64,000 nucleotides of DNA from Chthonomonas calidirosea (GTDB lineage: Bacteria > Armatimonadota > Fimbriimonadia > Fimbriimonadales > Fimbriimonadaceae): assembly GCA_945882415.1 (NCBI GenBank), contig CAMCWC010000010.1, positions 62,001 through 126,000 on the forward strand. The letters run 5' to 3'. The position numbers and the translations under genes are program-made. The notes beneath the pieces are model-generated. The model worked only from the letters and a program-made list of their open reading frames with translations. It did no database searches and was not told the DNA's origin. Position 1 is the first letter of the stretch; every line of letters starts with the position of its first letter. Below are positions 32,085-46,130 of this stretch, piece by piece.

Positions 32085-32792
32085 CTACAGGAGCCGATAC
32101 AAAAATGCCGCACTTGCGGCCCGAGGCATTTCTGGTAGCGGTTTGCCGCGGGGTTGCTCGGCCAGCCGCCCAACTTCGATTTGGAACTGCTGGTCCTCCG
32201 CTAAGAATTTTTCAACGTAAGCGCGGGCCGCCTTTCGTCCACACTCGGCAAGCAACAGCTCAATTGCCGTTCCGTGACCGATCAACGGCAAACCTGCGCC
32301 CATCAAGTTCGCTTCTAACTGTTCAGGATCCTCAAACTCGGCGAACCAGGGGATTGCCGTGGCTTGGATATGGGAGAGGAGTTCCGCATACTCGTACGTC
32401 CGGCCCTTGCACCACCAAACAAAGTATGAAGGCGGAAGTTCGAGTGCACCGATATCCGATGAGGCCACCAGGATAGGCGCGGCACTGGCCGGAGTCCAAT
32501 ACTTTTCTCGAACGGCGCGAATGTTGCGGTGGCAAAGATGGATGCGCAGGCGCACGGGAATCGCCGCAGCCTCGGTCTCATTCACGTCAAGCAGAATTTC
32601 GCAAATCCAGTCGTCTCGTCGCCGTTCGAACTGCGGAAGACCGCCGTTGTGAAAGAGCCTAAAGCCCGATTGCCAGAGCCCACCGGCAATGAAATGGCTT
32701 GCGCCCTGACGAATCTTGGGAATGGGAGCCAAAGGCGAGCCCGGCTCGAACTCGCGTTGCCACTCGTCTGCGTGCCGGTAGGTTTTCCGCAT
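32085..32792 (-). CDS. Conserved-looking hypothetical protein
   Basis: 235 residues with no family that I recognise. Features: a Trp/Arg-rich start (MRKTYRHADEWQREFEP), a central WWCKGRTYEYAELLSHIQ stretch that could be a small alpha-helical domain, and no signal peptide or membrane helix, so cytosolic. Composition and codon use match the neighbours. It lies 6 nt from the cyclase-like gene upstream and 42 nt from the sigma gene downstream. Possibly one transcript with both. Confidence 0.6.
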   Translation of the reverse strand: MRKTYRHADEWQREFEPGSPLAPIPKIRQGASHFIAGGLWQSGFRLFHNGGLPQFERRRDDWICEILLDVNETEAAAIPVRLRIHLCHRNIRAVREKYWTPASAAPILVASSDIGALELPPSYFVWWCKGRTYEYAELLSHIQATAIPWFAEFEDPEQLEANLMGAGLPLIGHGTAIELLLAECGRKAARAYVEKFLAEDQQFQIEVGRLAEQPRGKPLPEMPRAASAAFLYRLL

Positions 32793-32798
32793 GGAAAA

Positions 32799-34064
32799 TC
32801 AAACCGCCGGCAGCGGCGGAGTTTGCTCAGCCGAACCCGTCGTGACCATCGCCTTCGGCCGCCAGATTGCCGCCCGGGTATCTGCCGCCTCGATCATCTC
32901 TTCCCCAACTGCGGTTGCTCCACCCGGCAGGTACATTACGCTGGCTTCGGTTACCGCCACACCGCCCGGAGGGCAGTACTTCTGGATCGTAGCCGCGACA
33001 TCGATCACGTGTGAGAAGTTGAGCGACTTGATGTCTCCGCCCTGGGGCGTAACCACCGTTCCGGTATGAACGCCGCACCGCAAGGTGATCGGCGACCCCA
33101 ATCGGTTTCGGAACGTGTTGAGCTCAAACAACCCGGACTGAATCGTCTTAGCCGCGGCAAAGGCCTGATGCGGATGATCAAACGCACAAGTCACGCCATC
33201 ACCCGCCGTGCTGTGAACACGACCGCCGTACCGCACCGTGATGCGCTCCACGTACCCGTGGTATTCGGTGAAGGTGTATTCCACCGCCAGCAGGTCTGCT
33301 TTCAGCTTCATCTTCGTCGAACCCACGATATCGACGCTGAGGAACGTAACGCTCTGCTCACCGCTCCGAAGTCGGTCCTGCAGCTCAACGAGCTGAGAAA
33401 GCAGTTCTTGACGCTCCTTGATCGGGTCCCGCAAGCCGAGACTGTCACGGTTGTTTTCAACCGCCTTCTTGAGCAGGGCGCCGGCAATGCCACCGCCAAT
33501 CATGATTGGCAAAATCGCCGGAGCATAAATCTTCATCGCCGACTGCATCAGCAACGAAAACACCGCGTACATTCCGAAGAACGCACCGCCAAGAATGGCT
33601 CCATTCACACCGGCCCACTTAACATCTTTCGAAAGTGCGACCTGATACAAGCCGAGCGAAAGCGCGATGAGGCCGACCATGCTGAGCACGCCGTATTGGC
33701 TGACCGAACTCCCGAGTCGGTACTCCAAGGCAAACAGGAAGGCGCACACCGTCGCCATGGTGCCAACGCCGACCATGCGGCGCGTTTCTGGGTCCAGCGT
33801 GAGGAACTGTGCACGCAGGTTGGTAAGCCGACTCCGGTTTTCCTTTTCGGCACGGACCTTGACCGCAAGTCGAACGTACTCGGTTGGCGCACCGGTGGCT
33901 TCGGCGACCGCCTGAATGGCGTCGTCGTCAAGCACTCCTCCGTTCGACATCCGCAGGCGCTCTGCGAGCGCCAGCATCTGGTCAACCGTGTCTTCGGTGA
34001 GGTCAAATTGCCCCCCCGAACCATCCGCTAGCCTCGTTTGCAGCGGGTTTAAATCTGAACTCAT
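32799..34064 (-). CDS. Membrane protein with degenerate class III nucleotidyl cyclase domain
   Basis: 421 residues. N-terminal cytosolic helices (about 20-75), four transmembrane helices between about 98 and 198, a coiled-coil linker (about 212-236, ELLSQLVELQDRLRSG), and a class III cyclase fold from about 239. The two metal aspartates are kept (Asp245 in VDIVGST; Asp289 in STAGDG). Other catalytic positions, numbered as in Rv1625c, are lost: the purine-selecting Lys is Ser285, the second selecting Asp is Leu348, and the transition-state Asn/Arg are Asp355/Thr359. A catalytically weak or inactive signalling scaffold is likely. Divergent from the cytochrome gene. Confidence 0.78.
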   Translation of the reverse strand: MSSDLNPLQTRLADGSGGQFDLTEDTVDQMLALAERLRMSNGGVLDDDAIQAVAEATGAPTEYVRLAVKVRAEKENRSRLTNLRAQFLTLDPETRRMVGVGTMATVCAFLFALEYRLGSSVSQYGVLSMVGLIALSLGLYQVALSKDVKWAGVNGAILGGAFFGMYAVFSLLMQSAMKIYAPAILPIMIGGGIAGALLKKAVENNRDSLGLRDPIKERQELLSQLVELQDRLRSGEQSVTFLSVDIVGSTKMKLKADLLAVEYTFTEYHGYVERITVRYGGRVHSTAGDGVTCAFDHPHQAFAAAKTIQSGLFELNTFRNRLGSPITLRCGVHTGTVVTPQGGDIKSLNFSHVIDVAATIQKYCPPGGVAVTEASVMYLPGGATAVGEEMIEAADTRAAIWRPKAMVTTGSAEQTPPLPAV

Positions 34065-34197: not shown

Positions 34198-35424
34198 ATG
34201 GCAAATCAAAAAACTGATCATGTAGCGACTTTGGGGGCAGCAGCGCTGATCCTCACCGTCAGTCAGATTGCGGTCGGGATCGCACTCGGCACTCGTTACA
34301 TTGCTACGACCGGTGGTGCCCATAAGAGCGTCCAGAACCTTCACTTCGATCCGACGTTCGGAATTTTGCAGGGATTCCACTATTGGGCCAGCGCGGTCCT
34401 CATCGTCGTCAGCGGCCTTGCAGTAGCCGCCGGCCTTTGGAGTGGAAGCTACATCCACAAGAGTCAAACGCAGTTCGTCAGCAACGTCTTCCTGTTTGTT
34501 TTCGCCTTCGCTTTCCAGCTAACCGGCAACATTTTGCCTTGGGATCGTCATGCGGTCCAAACCGCCGCAATCGAAGGAAGCATTGCTGGCCGAGTGCCGG
34601 GGATCGGAAGACCCCTCATGGAAGCAATGCTAGGAGGCAAGGGTGTTTCCCAGGAGACGTTGACGCTTTGGTACGACCTGCACCGATTCGTCTTGCCGGG
34701 CCTCTTTGTGGTCCTAGCGATCGTGCTCATCAGTTCTTACATCAAAGAGCGGGAAGGAGAGCCGAACTGGGCTGCCGCAGCCGGCGGGCTTGCGGTCGCA
34801 TTCCTAACCTCGTTTGTCTTGCGCAGCCCGCTGGGCACCGCCGCCACGGCCGCCGATGCCGGAAAATTTGACGCCCTCGCTAGTTGGTACACCCTTCCGG
34901 CTCACGCTATGCTCGTTTGGACCGATGGGCTTATGCGAAGTGGCGGTTGGCTCGGTGCCGTTCTCCTACCATCCGCCGTCCTTGCCGCCATTCTTGGAAT
35001 TGGTGTGCTTAAGGTTTCGCAGCAGGTTGCCCAGTGGTTCCTGGTTGGCACGACCCTGCTGTTTTCCGGCATCACGTTGCTACACGGCGGGAAGCCCGCG
35101 CCCCTCGTCGGAAAGCGCGACCCGGCTTCCCTAGCCACGATTGCCAAGCAAACCGATACCAAGGACCCGCAACTGGCCGCAATGGGGCGCCGAGTGTTCA
35201 ACTCGAACTCTTGCGTGGCCTGCCACGGACAGGATGGCAAAGTTGGCACGACGGGGCCAAGCCTCGCGGATTCGTACAAAAAGCGGACCGACGTGTTCTA
35301 TTACGTCACGTACATCAAGAACCCGAAAGAGATTAAGCCAGGCTCGACAATGCCAGGTTTCCCGGGTCTAAAACCAGAAGAACTCCGCGCGTTGGCGGAG
35401 TTCCTTCGGTTCCCAAATGAGTAG
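34198..35424 (+). CDS. Cytochrome b-like membrane protein fused to a C-terminal cytochrome c domain
   Basis: 408 residues from ATG 34198; the frame is open much further upstream but overlaps the divergent gene and has no family match. Residues 10-295: about eight helices resembling cytochrome b6 and subunit IV: His61 in GFHYW, ILPWDRHA (the family's LPWDQ), His162 in DLHRFVLPG, and SWYTLPAHAMLVW (in place of PEWYFLPxYA). The residues at +14 from His61 and +14/+15 from His162 are Ala75, Val176 and Leu177, not His. The c domain has CVACH at 339-343 and Met385 (STMPGFP) as likely axial ligand. No Rieske gene is adjacent. An electron-transfer role is inferred; the partner is unknown. Confidence 0.78.
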   Translation: MANQKTDHVATLGAAALILTVSQIAVGIALGTRYIATTGGAHKSVQNLHFDPTFGILQGFHYWASAVLIVVSGLAVAAGLWSGSYIHKSQTQFVSNVFLFVFAFAFQLTGNILPWDRHAVQTAAIEGSIAGRVPGIGRPLMEAMLGGKGVSQETLTLWYDLHRFVLPGLFVVLAIVLISSYIKEREGEPNWAAAAGGLAVAFLTSFVLRSPLGTAATAADAGKFDALASWYTLPAHAMLVWTDGLMRSGGWLGAVLLPSAVLAAILGIGVLKVSQQVAQWFLVGTTLLFSGITLLHGGKPAPLVGKRDPASLATIAKQTDTKDPQLAAMGRRVFNSNSCVACHGQDGKVGTTGPSLADSYKKRTDVFYYVTYIKNPKEIKPGSTMPGFPGLKPEELRALAEFLRFPNE

Positions 35425-35432
35425 GGTGCAGA

Positions 35433-36218
35433 CTAGCCGCAACCGGTAAGGTCTGGCTCTGGCTCGCTGGTCTTCGGAACGAAGACCGTTCCAAACGAGT
35501 TGTTGCCAAGCGAGAACGTTGGCGACGAAGCGTAGCACCCTGGATCGCCAGTTCGGAAACCGTTGCCTTCAAAGCTGAAGACACGTCGGTAGTTCGTCGG
35601 CAGCGTGTCGCTGTTGATCGTGAACGTTGCAGCATTGAGCGGCAAGGAGGCTCGGAAGTTGCCTTGGAACGGCTGTCGGACGGTTCCAATGAGAACTCCG
35701 CTAGCATCGTAGAACTCGATCGCGGCGCCGCGAATCGGCTGGCCAGTCGAAGAGTCCACAACCTGGCCCTGAACCGAAGCCTGTGCGGGCTTGATCTGGT
35801 AAGCGGCAAAGTAGTCCACGCCGTTGTAGCGAGTTCCGATGAATTCCGTGGTTGTCGTGACGACGTTGCCCGCTTCGTAAAGACCGGAATCGGTTCCGAT
35901 CTGGCCAAAGGCGCTCGTTTCGTCGCTGTTTCTCCACTCGGTGACCGGTAGAACCGTTCGCACACCCGTGGTCGAGTACGTTGCGAGTTGGTACTTAATG
36001 ATCTGACCGACCTGAACGTTCAGGGGGTCAACAACCACGAAGGCGGCTGGATCGCTTGGAGCAACCCCACCAGGAGCCAACACGGCCTCGACGAACGTAA
36101 GTGGGCCAGCTGTTGGCAATCCGCCGCCACCACCTGCTGCCCCACCACCGTTATTTCCTCCGCATCCTGCTAAGAACAGTGCGGCCAAAGTAGTTACCGC
36201 GAAACTTGCGCGCTTCAT
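35433..36218 (-). CDS. Lipoprotein with carboxypeptidase-regulatory-like domain (paralogue 1)
   Basis: Signal and lipobox (LFLAGC), then a Gly-rich linker. Two beta-rich modules: about 50-140, containing SDETSAFGQIGTDSGLY, resembling a bacterial Ig-like fold; about 150-215, VQGQVVDSSTGQPIRGAAIEFYDASGVLIG, a carboxypeptidase-regulatory-like (transthyretin-like) domain that usually mediates surface contacts. Ends PEPDLTGCG. 261 residues. Paralogue of the next gene, which is oriented the same way. Function unknown. Confidence 0.7.
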   Translation of the reverse strand: MKRASFAVTTLAALFLAGCGGNNGGGAAGGGGGLPTAGPLTFVEAVLAPGGVAPSDPAAFVVVDPLNVQVGQIIKYQLATYSTTGVRTVLPVTEWRNSDETSAFGQIGTDSGLYEAGNVVTTTTEFIGTRYNGVDYFAAYQIKPAQASVQGQVVDSSTGQPIRGAAIEFYDASGVLIGTVRQPFQGNFRASLPLNAATFTINSDTLPTNYRRVFSFEGNGFRTGDPGCYASSPTFSLGNNSFGTVFVPKTSEPEPDLTGCG

Positions 36219-36258
36219 CGATTCATATTATGCCAATCTCAGCGAATATTGGGAAGGT

Positions 36259-37053
36259 TTACAATCCGCAATCTGGAGGCGGAGGCGGAGGAGTTGTGCC
36301 GCCAACCTTACGATAGACGACCGGATTCGATGGCAACAAGGTCAAACTTGAACTTGAAACTGCCGGAAGTGTCGCTTTTGAGTCTGGACAAATGACGCTG
36401 TATTCGCTCGCACCGTAGCCAAACTGATTGTAATATCTTGTGGCCAATCCGGTCATATCCACCAAAAAACCAGTAGCGTTAAACGGCGCGACGACTCGGA
36501 AGGTGCCGTTCGAGCCCGTAACCGCGGTTCCGACCTGAGCCCCTGCACCGTTGTAGATGCGCACGAAGGCTCCAGGGACGCCTTGCGAGTCCGTATTCCG
36601 AACGCGACCCGCGACCAAACCACCGCTTGCCGCCTTAATCGTGAAGTTCGCGGTGTATTCGTTTCCGTTGGCTCGCACGACGTAAGTTGTGCTCGTGGCT
36701 GCCTTGGCCTCAAAAGCCCCGGAACTGCTCGTCACGGCGATCGAGCCAGGCGCAGTGGTTGACCAGTTGCTGGAAGGCACGGCGGCGATCTGTCCGGTGG
36801 AATCGCGGCCCCAGAGGTACATCTGAAGCGTGTCCCCGACCCGAATGTTCGAGGGATCGACTACGTAGTTGTCGGGCGTTCGGAACTCAACCGCGACTTC
36901 CGTGAAGGTTCCGCCAGAGCCGCCGCCGCTGGCCGAGGTGCTGCCGCCTCCACCGCCGCCGCCACCACACGCTATCACTGTGATCAAAAGGGCAGAGCAA
37001 ACACCAACACTCCACGCCGAACCCGCTTTACGCATACCATTCCAACGATTCAT
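36259..37053 (-). CDS. Lipoprotein with carboxypeptidase-regulatory-like domain (paralogue 2)
   Basis: 264 residues, lipobox region LLITVIAC followed by a poly-Gly tract. Same plan as its neighbour: VVDPSNIRVGDTLQMYLWG aligns with VVDPLNVQVGQIIKYQL there, then a regulatory-like domain VAGRVRNTDSQGVPGAFVRIYNGAG, and a short Pro-rich tail ending in PDCGL. AGG seven bases before the ATG supports 37053. Tandem duplication is evident (40-nt gap). The outer face of the membrane is the likely location. Confidence 0.7.
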   Translation of the reverse strand: MNRWNGMRKAGSAWSVGVCSALLITVIACGGGGGGGGSTSASGGGSGGTFTEVAVEFRTPDNYVVDPSNIRVGDTLQMYLWGRDSTGQIAAVPSSNWSTTAPGSIAVTSSSGAFEAKAATSTTYVVRANGNEYTANFTIKAASGGLVAGRVRNTDSQGVPGAFVRIYNGAGAQVGTAVTGSNGTFRVVAPFNATGFLVDMTGLATRYYNQFGYGASEYSVICPDSKATLPAVSSSSLTLLPSNPVVYRKVGGTTPPPPPPDCGL

Positions 37054-42491: not shown

Positions 42492-45400
42492 TTAAGCCAC
42501 CGGTAGGCTCTCGGTCGAACTTGGATCTGCGCCGACCGAACCTGCGCCCGGGTCGGTGTCAAATTCCGTTCGTCGTCCACGCAGACGACCGATCCAGTTG
42601 GACCAATCGTCGAAGATCGTGTACGAACAAGGAATGACCAGCAGAGTTAAGAACGTCGAGAGCGTTACGCCACCGATGATGACGTAGCCCAGCGACTCGC
42701 GGAACTCCGAACCGCGACCAACCGCCAGAGCCGTTGGCAACAATCCGAGGACCAAAGCCAGCGAGGTCATCATGATCGGTCGAAGTCGGGTCGGACCCGC
42801 TTCCAGAATCGCGTCCTCTCGCTGCCTTCCACGACCACGCAAGGTGTTCGTGTAGTCCACGAGCAGAATCGCGTTCTTACCGACCAATCCGATCAGCGTC
42901 AGCAAGCCGATAAAGCCGATAAGGCTGAACTGCTTGTTGAAGATCATCAACGCGACGAGCGCGCCAACGAACGCTTGCGGCTGAGCGATTTGGATGATGA
43001 ACGGATACAGAAGGTTCTCGTACAGCGAAGCCAGAACCATGTACACGAGCACCAGACCCAGGAGCAACGCTCCCAGAAGGGCTGCCGATTCTCGGTTCTG
43101 AGATTCAGCCTGCCCCAGCGGTCGAAGGGTAACCGTGGATGGGATTAGCTTTTCCTTTGCCATCCAAGCGTTGATCTGCGCCTGAACCGTTCCGGCTGCG
43201 AAGCCAGGCAGCAAGTCCGCCGTGACCCGAATTTCTTCAGCACGGTTTCGTCGCTCAATCTTGTCGGTGCCGGTTCCTGGAACCAGATTCGCAACGCCGC
43301 TGACGTAGATCGGCTCACCCTGGGTGAACTTCACCGGGATCGAGTTGAGCGTGTTCGGATCGTTTCGGTCCTCAAGGTCCAGCATCGTGCGGATCGAGTA
43401 CTCCCGGCCCGCTTCTCGGTACTTGACCGTATCGTCGCCAGTGTAGGCAATTCGCAAAACCGACGCCAAATCGTTGACCGTCATGCCCGAGTCGGCAAGC
43501 CGAGTTCGGTCTGGTTCAGCCCGAAGCTCCGGCTTGCCGGGCTTGGACGAGATGTCGGGGTTGATGACACCCGCAATGGCACCGCCTTGCAGGCCACGCT
43601 TGATCTTCGAGACGACGTCCAAAATCTCTTCTCGGTTGTTCCCCGAGAACGACATTTGAATCGCCGATCCGGCACCAAAGCCATCTGACTGGGCAACCCG
43701 AATTTCTGCACCCGAGATTCGACCGACCTTTTGGATGATCTCTGCCGAGACCGCATCCGTGGACCGATCTCGTAGCGGTTCTTCGTGCTTCACCCAGAAG
43801 GCGAGCGTGTCCAGAATCGATTTCTTCTCATGGAGCGAAACCACGACCTGAGCGTAGTTGCCGCCCTGCGTTCCGGCCTGGAACTGGCTAACGCCCTGAG
43901 AACCAATGGTGGCGAGCATGTACTCGACTTCCGGAATGCCTTTGATCCTTTCTTCAACCAACGCGACAACTCGCTCGGTGGCTTCCAAGCTTCTGCCCGG
44001 CGGAAGCTGAATGTTAACGTTCAGCGATCCGGTGTCCGACGATGGGAAGAAGGAGAACTTGAACAATGGTTCGTCCTTCCACTGACCAATGTGGTAGCCG
44101 CCAAAGGCCGCGATCGGGAAGATCACACCGTAAGCAAGTCCGACCCAAAGGAAGTTCGTCGGCGCGATCTTGTAGTTCTTCTGTGTCCCGGAATATTGCA
44201 GAAATGCTCCGGCGATCGCCGCAACGATAGTGCCCACTGCGAAGGCCAACGCAGGAATTGGTATCGCGCCTTTGCTCGGTGCAGCAATCACAATTGCCAC
44301 AATTGACCCGATAACGTAGCACACCATCATTGCCTTCAGGCCATCTCTCCAATACACCCGCTTGAAAGCAGAGATCATGTAGACGATGAGCCCCACGAAC
44401 CAAGAAGCCACCATGATCGGCAAGCCCGTCATCAGCGCCGCGGTTGCGCTCGGTTGATTGCTACCTGCGATCAAAACAAAAACCGCAACCAGAACAAGGT
44501 TGCCCATGATGAACACCGGCCAGCGGTGGTTCAAAGACCAATTTAGAGCCTTGCGATAGCCGCGCTCAAACGAGGCAAACCATCGGTCGAAGCTCTGAGC
44601 GAAGCGTCCACGCGGGTGCTCCATGTCTTCGCCGGCTTTGTACCAGCGCGAAGCAAGCATCGGCGTGAGCGTAAAGGATACGAATAGCGAGAACAGAACC
44701 GCCATGACGTAGCCGAGAGCAAGCGGTCGGAAGAACTGTCCGACAATGCCTCCAACAAACGCAAGCGGCAGGAAGACAACCACGTCCGCCAAGGTGATCG
44801 CGATGGCCGCAACGCCGATTTCTGCACGACCGTTGATCGCCGCCTCGCGAGGGTCCTCGCCCATCTTCAAGTGACGATAGATGTTCTCAAGAACAACGAT
44901 CGCGTCGTCCACCAGAACCGCGATTGCCAGCGAGAGCGCCAGCATCGACAAGTTGTTGATCGTGAATCCAGCAATTCGGTAAGCCGCGAACGTCGCGAAC
45001 AAACAAACCGGAATCGCCAATGCAACGATTGCCGTTCCACGGAAGTCGTGAAGGAAGATGTAAACGATCAAGCTGACCAAGAAGATGCTGAAATACAGCG
45101 TCAGGTTAAGGTCATCGAGGCCTTCCTGAATCTTGATCGCTTGGTCTTGAGTCTTGACAAACTTAAGTCCAATCGCAGAGAACTCTTTTTCAAGGCCCGC
45201 GATAACTTCAGTAGATGCCTTCGAAATCTCGACTGCGTTACCCTCTCGGGCCTTCTGCAGAACGAGAACGATTGTGTCGGCGCCATCTAGCGTGGAGTAG
45301 GCGGAACGCTCGGCAACGGTGTCGCGAATTGTCGCAACATCCTTGAGCCGAATCAGCCGACCTTTGCCCTGAGGGTTATTGGGGTTCGACTTGGAGAACT

Positions 45401-46130
45401 GAAGTTCTTCCAGTTCCTTAATGCTGGTGAACTCACCCGGCACGCGGACGCTCACTTCTTGCTCGCCGGTGATGATCTTTCCGGACGGGATGTTCAGGGT
45501 TGCAGCCTGAATCGCATTCTTAACTTCAAGAAGGCCGACGCCATATCGAATCAGCTGATCCTTCTTGATCTCAACCTGGAATTCACGAACGTCGCCGCCC
45601 TGAACTCCAACTTCTGCAACACCCGAAATTCGGGCAAACCGGTCCTTCAACTTGTCGTCGACAAGCGTTCGCAGGTCGCGGCCGTTTAGCCCGGTAGCCG
45701 AAAGAGCGTAATACAAGATCGGCGTCGAAGACGTGTCAACCTTCGAGATGGTTGGTTTCTCAACGCTGTCTGGAAGCTGGCCCGAAACCGAGTCAACCTT
45801 CGACCGAACTTCGTTCAGCGCGACGTCCACGTCGGTCGTGAGCTCAAGCTGGATGATAACCACTGATCGGCCTTCGACCGACGTACTGGTGACTTCTCGA
45901 ATTCCGTTGACGCCCGAGACCGATTCTTCGATGGGTCGAGAGACCAGCGTGGCGACTTCGTCGGGGTTTGCGCCGGGATAGAGGGTCAAAACCGTCAACG
46001 TGCCAAAGCTAACGTCTGGGTTTTGCTCTTTGCGCATTGCCTGGTAGCCGAGAAGCCCCATGGCGATTACGCCGATCATGATCATCAAGATCAAGATCGG
46101 GCGCTGAATGGCGGTTTTTGTTAAGTTCAC
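42492..46130 (-). CDS. RND efflux transporter, HAE1 type, with an extra transmembrane block
   Basis: 1212 residues, about 160 longer than AcrB. HAE1 features: QNPDVSFGTLTVLTLYPGANPDEV, SVSGVNGIREVTSTSVEG, TM4 pair Asp408-Asp409 (AVLVDDAIVVLEN), VVVFLPLAFVGGIVGQFF, and the second half symmetrical with PPGRSLEATERV and GLVGKNAILLVDY. Between TM7 and the FFPSSD strand, residues about 556-694 hold four added hydrophobic helices (about 567-589, 599-616, 623-645, 659-681). Upstream: MFP, TolC and an AbrB-like protein, each overlapping by 4 nt; downstream: metal ATPase. Proton-driven export of drugs or lipophiles is likely; substrate unknown. Confidence 0.9.
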   Translation of the reverse strand: MNLTKTAIQRPILILMIMIGVIAMGLLGYQAMRKEQNPDVSFGTLTVLTLYPGANPDEVATLVSRPIEESVSGVNGIREVTSTSVEGRSVVIIQLELTTDVDVALNEVRSKVDSVSGQLPDSVEKPTISKVDTSSTPILYYALSATGLNGRDLRTLVDDKLKDRFARISGVAEVGVQGGDVREFQVEIKKDQLIRYGVGLLEVKNAIQAATLNIPSGKIITGEQEVSVRVPGEFTSIKELEELQFSKSNPNNPQGKGRLIRLKDVATIRDTVAERSAYSTLDGADTIVLVLQKAREGNAVEISKASTEVIAGLEKEFSAIGLKFVKTQDQAIKIQEGLDDLNLTLYFSIFLVSLIVYIFLHDFRGTAIVALAIPVCLFATFAAYRIAGFTINNLSMLALSLAIAVLVDDAIVVLENIYRHLKMGEDPREAAINGRAEIGVAAIAITLADVVVFLPLAFVGGIVGQFFRPLALGYVMAVLFSLFVSFTLTPMLASRWYKAGEDMEHPRGRFAQSFDRWFASFERGYRKALNWSLNHRWPVFIMGNLVLVAVFVLIAGSNQPSATAALMTGLPIMVASWFVGLIVYMISAFKRVYWRDGLKAMMVCYVIGSIVAIVIAAPSKGAIPIPALAFAVGTIVAAIAGAFLQYSGTQKNYKIAPTNFLWVGLAYGVIFPIAAFGGYHIGQWKDEPLFKFSFFPSSDTGSLNVNIQLPPGRSLEATERVVALVEERIKGIPEVEYMLATIGSQGVSQFQAGTQGGNYAQVVVSLHEKKSILDTLAFWVKHEEPLRDRSTDAVSAEIIQKVGRISGAEIRVAQSDGFGAGSAIQMSFSGNNREEILDVVSKIKRGLQGGAIAGVINPDISSKPGKPELRAEPDRTRLADSGMTVNDLASVLRIAYTGDDTVKYREAGREYSIRTMLDLEDRNDPNTLNSIPVKFTQGEPIYVSGVANLVPGTGTDKIERRNRAEEIRVTADLLPGFAAGTVQAQINAWMAKEKLIPSTVTLRPLGQAESQNRESAALLGALLLGLVLVYMVLASLYENLLYPFIIQIAQPQAFVGALVALMIFNKQFSLIGFIGLLTLIGLVGKNAILLVDYTNTLRGRGRQREDAILEAGPTRLRPIMMTSLALVLGLLPTALAVGRGSEFRESLGYVIIGGVTLSTFLTLLVIPCSYTIFDDWSNWIGRLRGRRTEFDTDPGAGSVGADPSSTESLPVA

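Follow-up and report, generated by a model that had tools for sequence, protein, structure and literature searches.

A cytochrome b/c fusion without n-side haem ligands or a Rieske partner: a candidate non-bifurcating quinol:cytochrome c oxidoreductase

The window, which is the whole 64,000-nucleotide stretch of DNA analysed here, encodes a cytochrome b membrane domain fused to a c-type haem domain in one chain, with ligands for only one haem b and no Rieske gene beside it. It is tentatively proposed, at somewhat less than even confidence, that this single-subunit protein derives from a b6c-type Rieske/cytochrome b protein and acts as a Rieske-independent, non-bifurcating menaquinol:cytochrome c oxidoreductase. 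The architecture is observed; the activity is what the conserved residues suggest. A more specific version, slightly less probable, is that of a natural Rieske-free quinol:cytochrome c oxidoreductase with one b haem, in which His118, Glu126 and His236 would form the acceptor set and bifurcation would have been dropped in evolution. Complex III is taken to be defined by a core of two b haems and a Rieske cluster that cannot be separated from one another. The focal protein clearly belongs to the cytochrome b family and falls outside the Rieske/cytochrome b complexes as so defined.

Architecture of the fusion protein

The gene and its domains are as follows.
34198..35424, + strand: cytochrome b/c fusion gene, 408 aa, open reading frame with an ATG start; the 90%-identical orthologue L004 starts alike
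34198..35097, + strand: b6 + subunit IV-like membrane domain, residues 1-300, helices A-G (AlphaFold, structure matches)
35167..35412, + strand: c-type haem domain, residues 324-405, Cytochrome_CBB3-like (Pfam, AlphaFold)
35212..35226, + strand: CVACH (339-343), haem c attachment motif, with C, C and H invariant (sequence, alignment)
35350..35352, + strand: Met385, axial haem c ligand, invariant (alignment)

Pfam assigned Cytochrome_B to residues 10-176 (E = 9e-21) and Cytochrome_CBB3 to residues 327-403 (E = 1e-9), and the top matches among PDB sequences were cytochromes b6. The protein stays well below the curated NCBIfam thresholds, scoring 100.7 bits against a cut-off of 290 for ExtP and 97.2 bits against 325 for cytochrome b6 PRK03735. 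AlphaFold with the family alignment gave a mean pLDDT of 90.6 and a pTM of 0.87, and residues 1-300 matched cytochrome b of bc complexes in Foldseek and VIA-align (best Z ∼25-27, 286-295 residues aligned). The cytochrome b fold is thus recovered by Pfam, AlphaFold and structure alignment, and a membrane-bound c-type haem acceptor is present as the fused CxxCH...M domain. As modelled, the protein is a b6 + subunit-IV fold fused to a single c-type haem domain, which the topology of helices A-G would place on the p side. The original prediction that the c domain is intact was borne out by CVACH and Met385, with C339, C342, H343 and M385 invariant in 28 orthologues.

Comparison of the window gene with its nearest orthologue (90% identical) gave a dN/dS of 0.039, a rough value because dS is 1.6, which points to strong purifying selection. 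A pseudogene was ruled out by this ratio together with conservation across the family.

Loss of the n-side haem site and of the Rieske partner

The haem b ligand positions were read from the alignment.
34378..34380, + strand: His61, p-side haem b ligand on helix B, yeast H82 position, invariant
34681..34683, + strand: His162, p-side haem b ligand on helix D, yeast H183 position, invariant
34420..34422, + strand: Ala75, where helix B would be expected to carry its n-side haem ligand
34723..34728, + strand: Val176-Leu177, the corresponding site on helix D, likewise without its n-side haem ligand (His in 0/28)

At +14 on helix B a His is found in only 5 of the 28 orthologues, each without a partner on helix D, where neither +14 nor +15 is His in any orthologue. 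The n-side member of the two bis-His sites is therefore absent in 28/28. Alternative n-side ligands were also sought in the 28-orthologue alignment and rejected, as the n-side halves of the helices hold no other conserved His. The pattern is not a chance one, since His61, His162, C339, C342, H343 and M385 are invariant while helix D lacks the second His throughout. It had been predicted from this one sequence that the first His of each pair is kept, with partners replaced by Ala75 and Val176/Leu177, and that the n-side site is gone while the p-side site is retained. Both statements agree with the alignment, and the comparison with Armatimonadota homologues suggested there as a check returned the one-haem ligand pattern throughout the 28 orthologues.

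The source genome (3.36 Mb, 99.2% complete) has a single Cytochrome_B-family gene, the focal gene itself. A bc-type Rieske protein was not found in this genome, whose only Rieske domain belongs to a ring-hydroxylating-oxygenase-like protein; the earlier claim that no Rieske gene lies nearby thus extends genome-wide. At this completeness an assembly gap was ruled out as the cause for this genome. No Rieske iron-sulfur protein is encoded near any focal locus, and the Rieske motif, present at every canonical-side locus read, occurs at none of the focal loci. The focal gene is the sole cytochrome b in 16 of 29 focal genomes. Nine of the sixteen, including the source genome, lack a bc-type Rieske protein at 91-100% completeness; the other seven have only an unlinked small Rieske-domain protein of 160-175 aa.

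The source genome also carries an alternative complex III (act) cluster, after which come Sco-like genes and those of a caa3-type oxidase whose subunit II bears a c domain; all genes of this act-cox cluster except NrfD and COX1 were recognised by eye. Its main respiratory chain is alternative complex III plus the caa3-type oxidase. An oxidase and NrfD occur together in 27/29 focal genomes, but also in nearly all genomes of the order, so that their co-occurrence with the focal gene is not diagnostic. Fimbriimonas ginsengisoli, a cultured, strictly aerobic member of the class, contains MK-10/MK-11 (PMC4072686), and by analogy the quinone of the focal enzyme is likely menaquinone.

A rebuilt Qo pocket

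Residues of the Qo region were mapped without gaps onto yeast cytochrome b, with an offset of 21 from His61=H82 and His162=H183 and an offset of 43 anchored on PEWY.
34549..34551, + strand: His118, yeast M139 position, His in 26/28; not His in canonical or Rieske-bearing relatives (alignment)
34561..34563, + strand: Thr122, yeast G143 position, 27/28 (alignment)
34573..34575, + strand: Glu126, yeast I147 position, 28/28, in none of 13 canonical-side relatives (alignment)
34879..34890, + strand: ASWY (228-231), replacing the PEWY Qo motif, with Ser229 at the yeast E272 position (sequence)
34903..34905, + strand: His236, yeast Y279 position, 28/28 (alignment)

Yeast M139, G143, I147, E272 and Y279 are all known as Qo positions through studies of inhibitors and mutants, and Rhodobacter capsulatus G158 corresponds to yeast G143. 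The substitution G158W has been used in R. capsulatus to inactivate Qo (PMC4330944). In canonical-side relatives of the phylum, position 118 is Lys, Arg or Leu, 122 is Ala, Gly or Ser, 126 is Gly or Arg, and 236 is Phe or Tyr (His once). In every one-haem member, including two Rieske-bearing proteins (L109 and L110), 122 is Thr (Ser once), 126 is Glu and 236 is His. Trp230 and Tyr231 are invariant in the 28 orthologues, as are His61, His162, Glu126, His236 and the haem c ligands.

The acidic PEWY-type motif is absent from the window protein, in line with the earlier reading of ASWY and a lost Qo glutamate; that reading is refined by the finding that family members differ at this position (Glu in 4/28, Ser in 11, Met in 7, others in the rest). 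The second PEWY residue is also naturally variable with quinone type (reviewed in PMC9162462), so that a missing glutamate is by itself no sign of an inactive Qo site. The alignment points to a pocket that has been rebuilt, not abandoned, as a re-engineered quinol (or metal) site, because it ranks with the best-conserved regions of the family, and a mere carrier would not need this.

Family and probable order of loss

A search across 121 related genomes recovered full-length orthologues of 30-90% identity, all within one order. When 291 genomes of the phylum were searched with a profile, a sharp gap separated the focal orthologues (E < 1e-109) from other cytochromes b, with one gene split into two ORFs as the sole exception. 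The alignment set therefore comprises 28 orthologues, and the 29 focal genomes include the one with the split gene. In that genome (L057, G061:C1:2780080-2781278) the two ORFs overlap, possibly through a frameshift, and a canonical Rieske/cytochrome b is also present. A scan of genome contigs for close relatives returned a single record, which is apparently the L004 genome again; the matches found in plasmids were all partial, to the b domain, and none reached 80% coverage.

In a tree computed after removal of the ligand and pocket columns, all 30 one-haem proteins fall on one side of a 100/98 branch; the shared ancestry of the one-haem b/c fusions is thus seen independently of the ligand columns. 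Among the 30 are L109 (6483-7895, - strand) and L110 (2596-4002, + strand), two b/c fusions that belong to a different family in the phylum. They resemble the focal protein in having no n-side ligands (+14 is Thr, +15 is Pro) and in Thr122, Glu126 and His236, but differ in having an adjacent Rieske gene, an AEWY motif that keeps the Glu, and Ser/Asn at 118. As 118 is His in 26/28 Rieske-less members, gain of His118 appears to accompany Rieske loss. Four focal-type proteins without a nearby Rieske gene (L020, L025, L026, L029) keep PEWY; the other 24 form a group without the PEWY Glu (branch 100/99).

Because L109 and L110 lack the n-side ligands yet retain an adjacent Rieske gene and the EWY Glu, the order of loss would be n-side haem, then Rieske, then PEWY Glu. 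The variation of this Glu within the family also places its loss after that of the n-side site. L109 and L110 are possible living intermediates. A conserved lineage losing a haem, then Rieske, then the Qo Glu, with apparent intermediates alive, would be a case of nature taking the Q cycle apart step by step. It opens to test whether quinol oxidation at the Qo site of a cytochrome b can proceed in the absence of bifurcation, and what residues are required to replace the Rieske histidine and the PEWY glutamate.

Other variants were seen in the phylum. L111 (1683-3152, - strand), a Rieske-adjacent protein of another family with PDWY, has lost both n-side ligands (Tyr, Phe) independently. L108 (7258-9525, + strand) and L113 (6196-8403, + strand) consist of cytochrome b and a c domain followed by a long tail with many CxxCH motifs.

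Proposed mechanism and alternatives

In canonical complexes one quinol electron passes to the Rieske protein and the other through haem b-p and haem b-n to Qi. Judged from its sequence, the focal protein is unlikely to perform such bifurcating quinol oxidation, since both acceptor branches, Rieske and n-side, have been lost. In the proposed enzyme, menaquinol would bind in the remodelled Qo pocket, where Glu126, His236 and His118 would stand in for the PEWY glutamate and the Rieske histidine as acceptors of the quinol protons. The two electrons would then leave one by one, by way of the p-side haem b and then the fused haem c, for either the caa3-type oxidase or a soluble cytochrome c. As there is no n-side haem there would be no Q cycle to conserve energy, and the enzyme would thus form an electroneutral or low-yield bypass beside alternative complex III.

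A plain p-side conduit, carrying electrons from haem b to haem c between periplasmic partners without quinol chemistry, is unlikely but would fit the loss of the n-side haem, of Rieske and (in 24/28) of the PEWY Glu, as well as the lack of conserved partner genes. Such a conduit would have no use for a seven-helix quinone-site fold, and it leaves unexplained the cluster of invariant Glu126/His236 and near-invariant Thr122/His118 at Qo positions. The original prediction of a stripped-down carrier rather than a bc complex accordingly stands in its second half, the n-side haem and Rieske being absent; the carrier half sits badly with these conserved pocket residues. The same residues could instead serve as a built-in high-potential acceptor replacing the Rieske cluster, His118, Glu126 and His236 binding a non-haem metal (2-His-1-carboxylate) or an extra haem. 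This is a rather improbable reading, which is favoured by the contrast at 118 between Rieske-less members and the two Rieske-bearing one-haem relatives but meets Gln or Arg there in two Rieske-less members.

It is very improbable that the protein serves as cytochrome b subunit in a Rieske/cytochrome b complex with its Rieske protein encoded elsewhere. The unlinked Rieske-domain proteins of seven sole-cytochrome-b genomes could act in trans, and the sister proteins L109/L110 have an adjacent Rieske, but the nine near-complete or complete genomes without a bc-type Rieske, that of the window among them, argue against it. Least probable is a redox sensor signalling the quinone or cytochrome redox state to a membrane cyclase: a Guanylate_cyc-domain gene does adjoin the focal gene divergently in 13 loci of one family, but not in other families of the order, and adjacency is by itself no proof of interaction. 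The preferred reading remains the quinol:cytochrome c oxidoreductase.

Comparison with known enzymes

With cytochrome b6 and subunit IV of b6f/b6c complexes (PDB 1q90, 2zt9; PF00033) the focal protein shares the fold, the p-side bis-His site and the LPW and WY motifs. It differs in lacking n-side ligands and Rieske, in its fused c haem and rebuilt Qo pocket, and in having SWY/MWY for PEWY. Bacillus-type QcrB/QcrC consists of b6 plus a subunit-IV/cytochrome c fusion with C-terminal class I cytochrome c elements. In the focal protein, by comparison, b6, IV and c are joined in one chain with one b haem and no QcrA. NapC/NrfH-type quinol dehydrogenases carry out Rieske-free, non-bifurcating p-side quinol oxidation to haem c; they may be functionally alike, but are unrelated multihaem c proteins. 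In an engineered b-H knockout of R. capsulatus bc1 (H212N), haem b-p alone is still reducible by quinol with Rieske present (PMC4330944). There too only the p-side haem b is left, but in a laboratory mutant with Rieske and a normal Qo site, whereas in the focal family the single-haem state is natural, conserved and Rieske-free. Among the PDB and NCBIfam matches inspected, none is described as lacking the n-side haem, and no published description of a Rieske-less or single-haem cytochrome b was found in the open-access literature.

Neighbouring genes

No conserved redox partner gene was found beside the focal gene across loci, and the neighbours do not point to a donor or acceptor. The gene mostly stands alone: one family has a divergently oriented membrane cyclase gene beside it in 13 loci, and elsewhere the adjacent genes are unrelated; in another family the neighbours are LytR-like and PilZ-like (envelope/regulatory; these two named by eye). 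In the window the divergent neighbour (32799-34064, - strand) has an N-terminal membrane region and a Guanylate_cyc domain; where this pairing is conserved, a 235-aa protein of no known family (32085-32792 in the window) often adjoins it. On the other side, two tandem putative lipoproteins with a carboxypeptidase-regulatory-like domain (35433-37053, - strand) are kept beside the focal gene in several relatives. Further along the window, a 1212-aa RND-type transporter (42492-46130, - strand) seemingly has an additional insert in its central part, comprising several helices and ∼150 residues.
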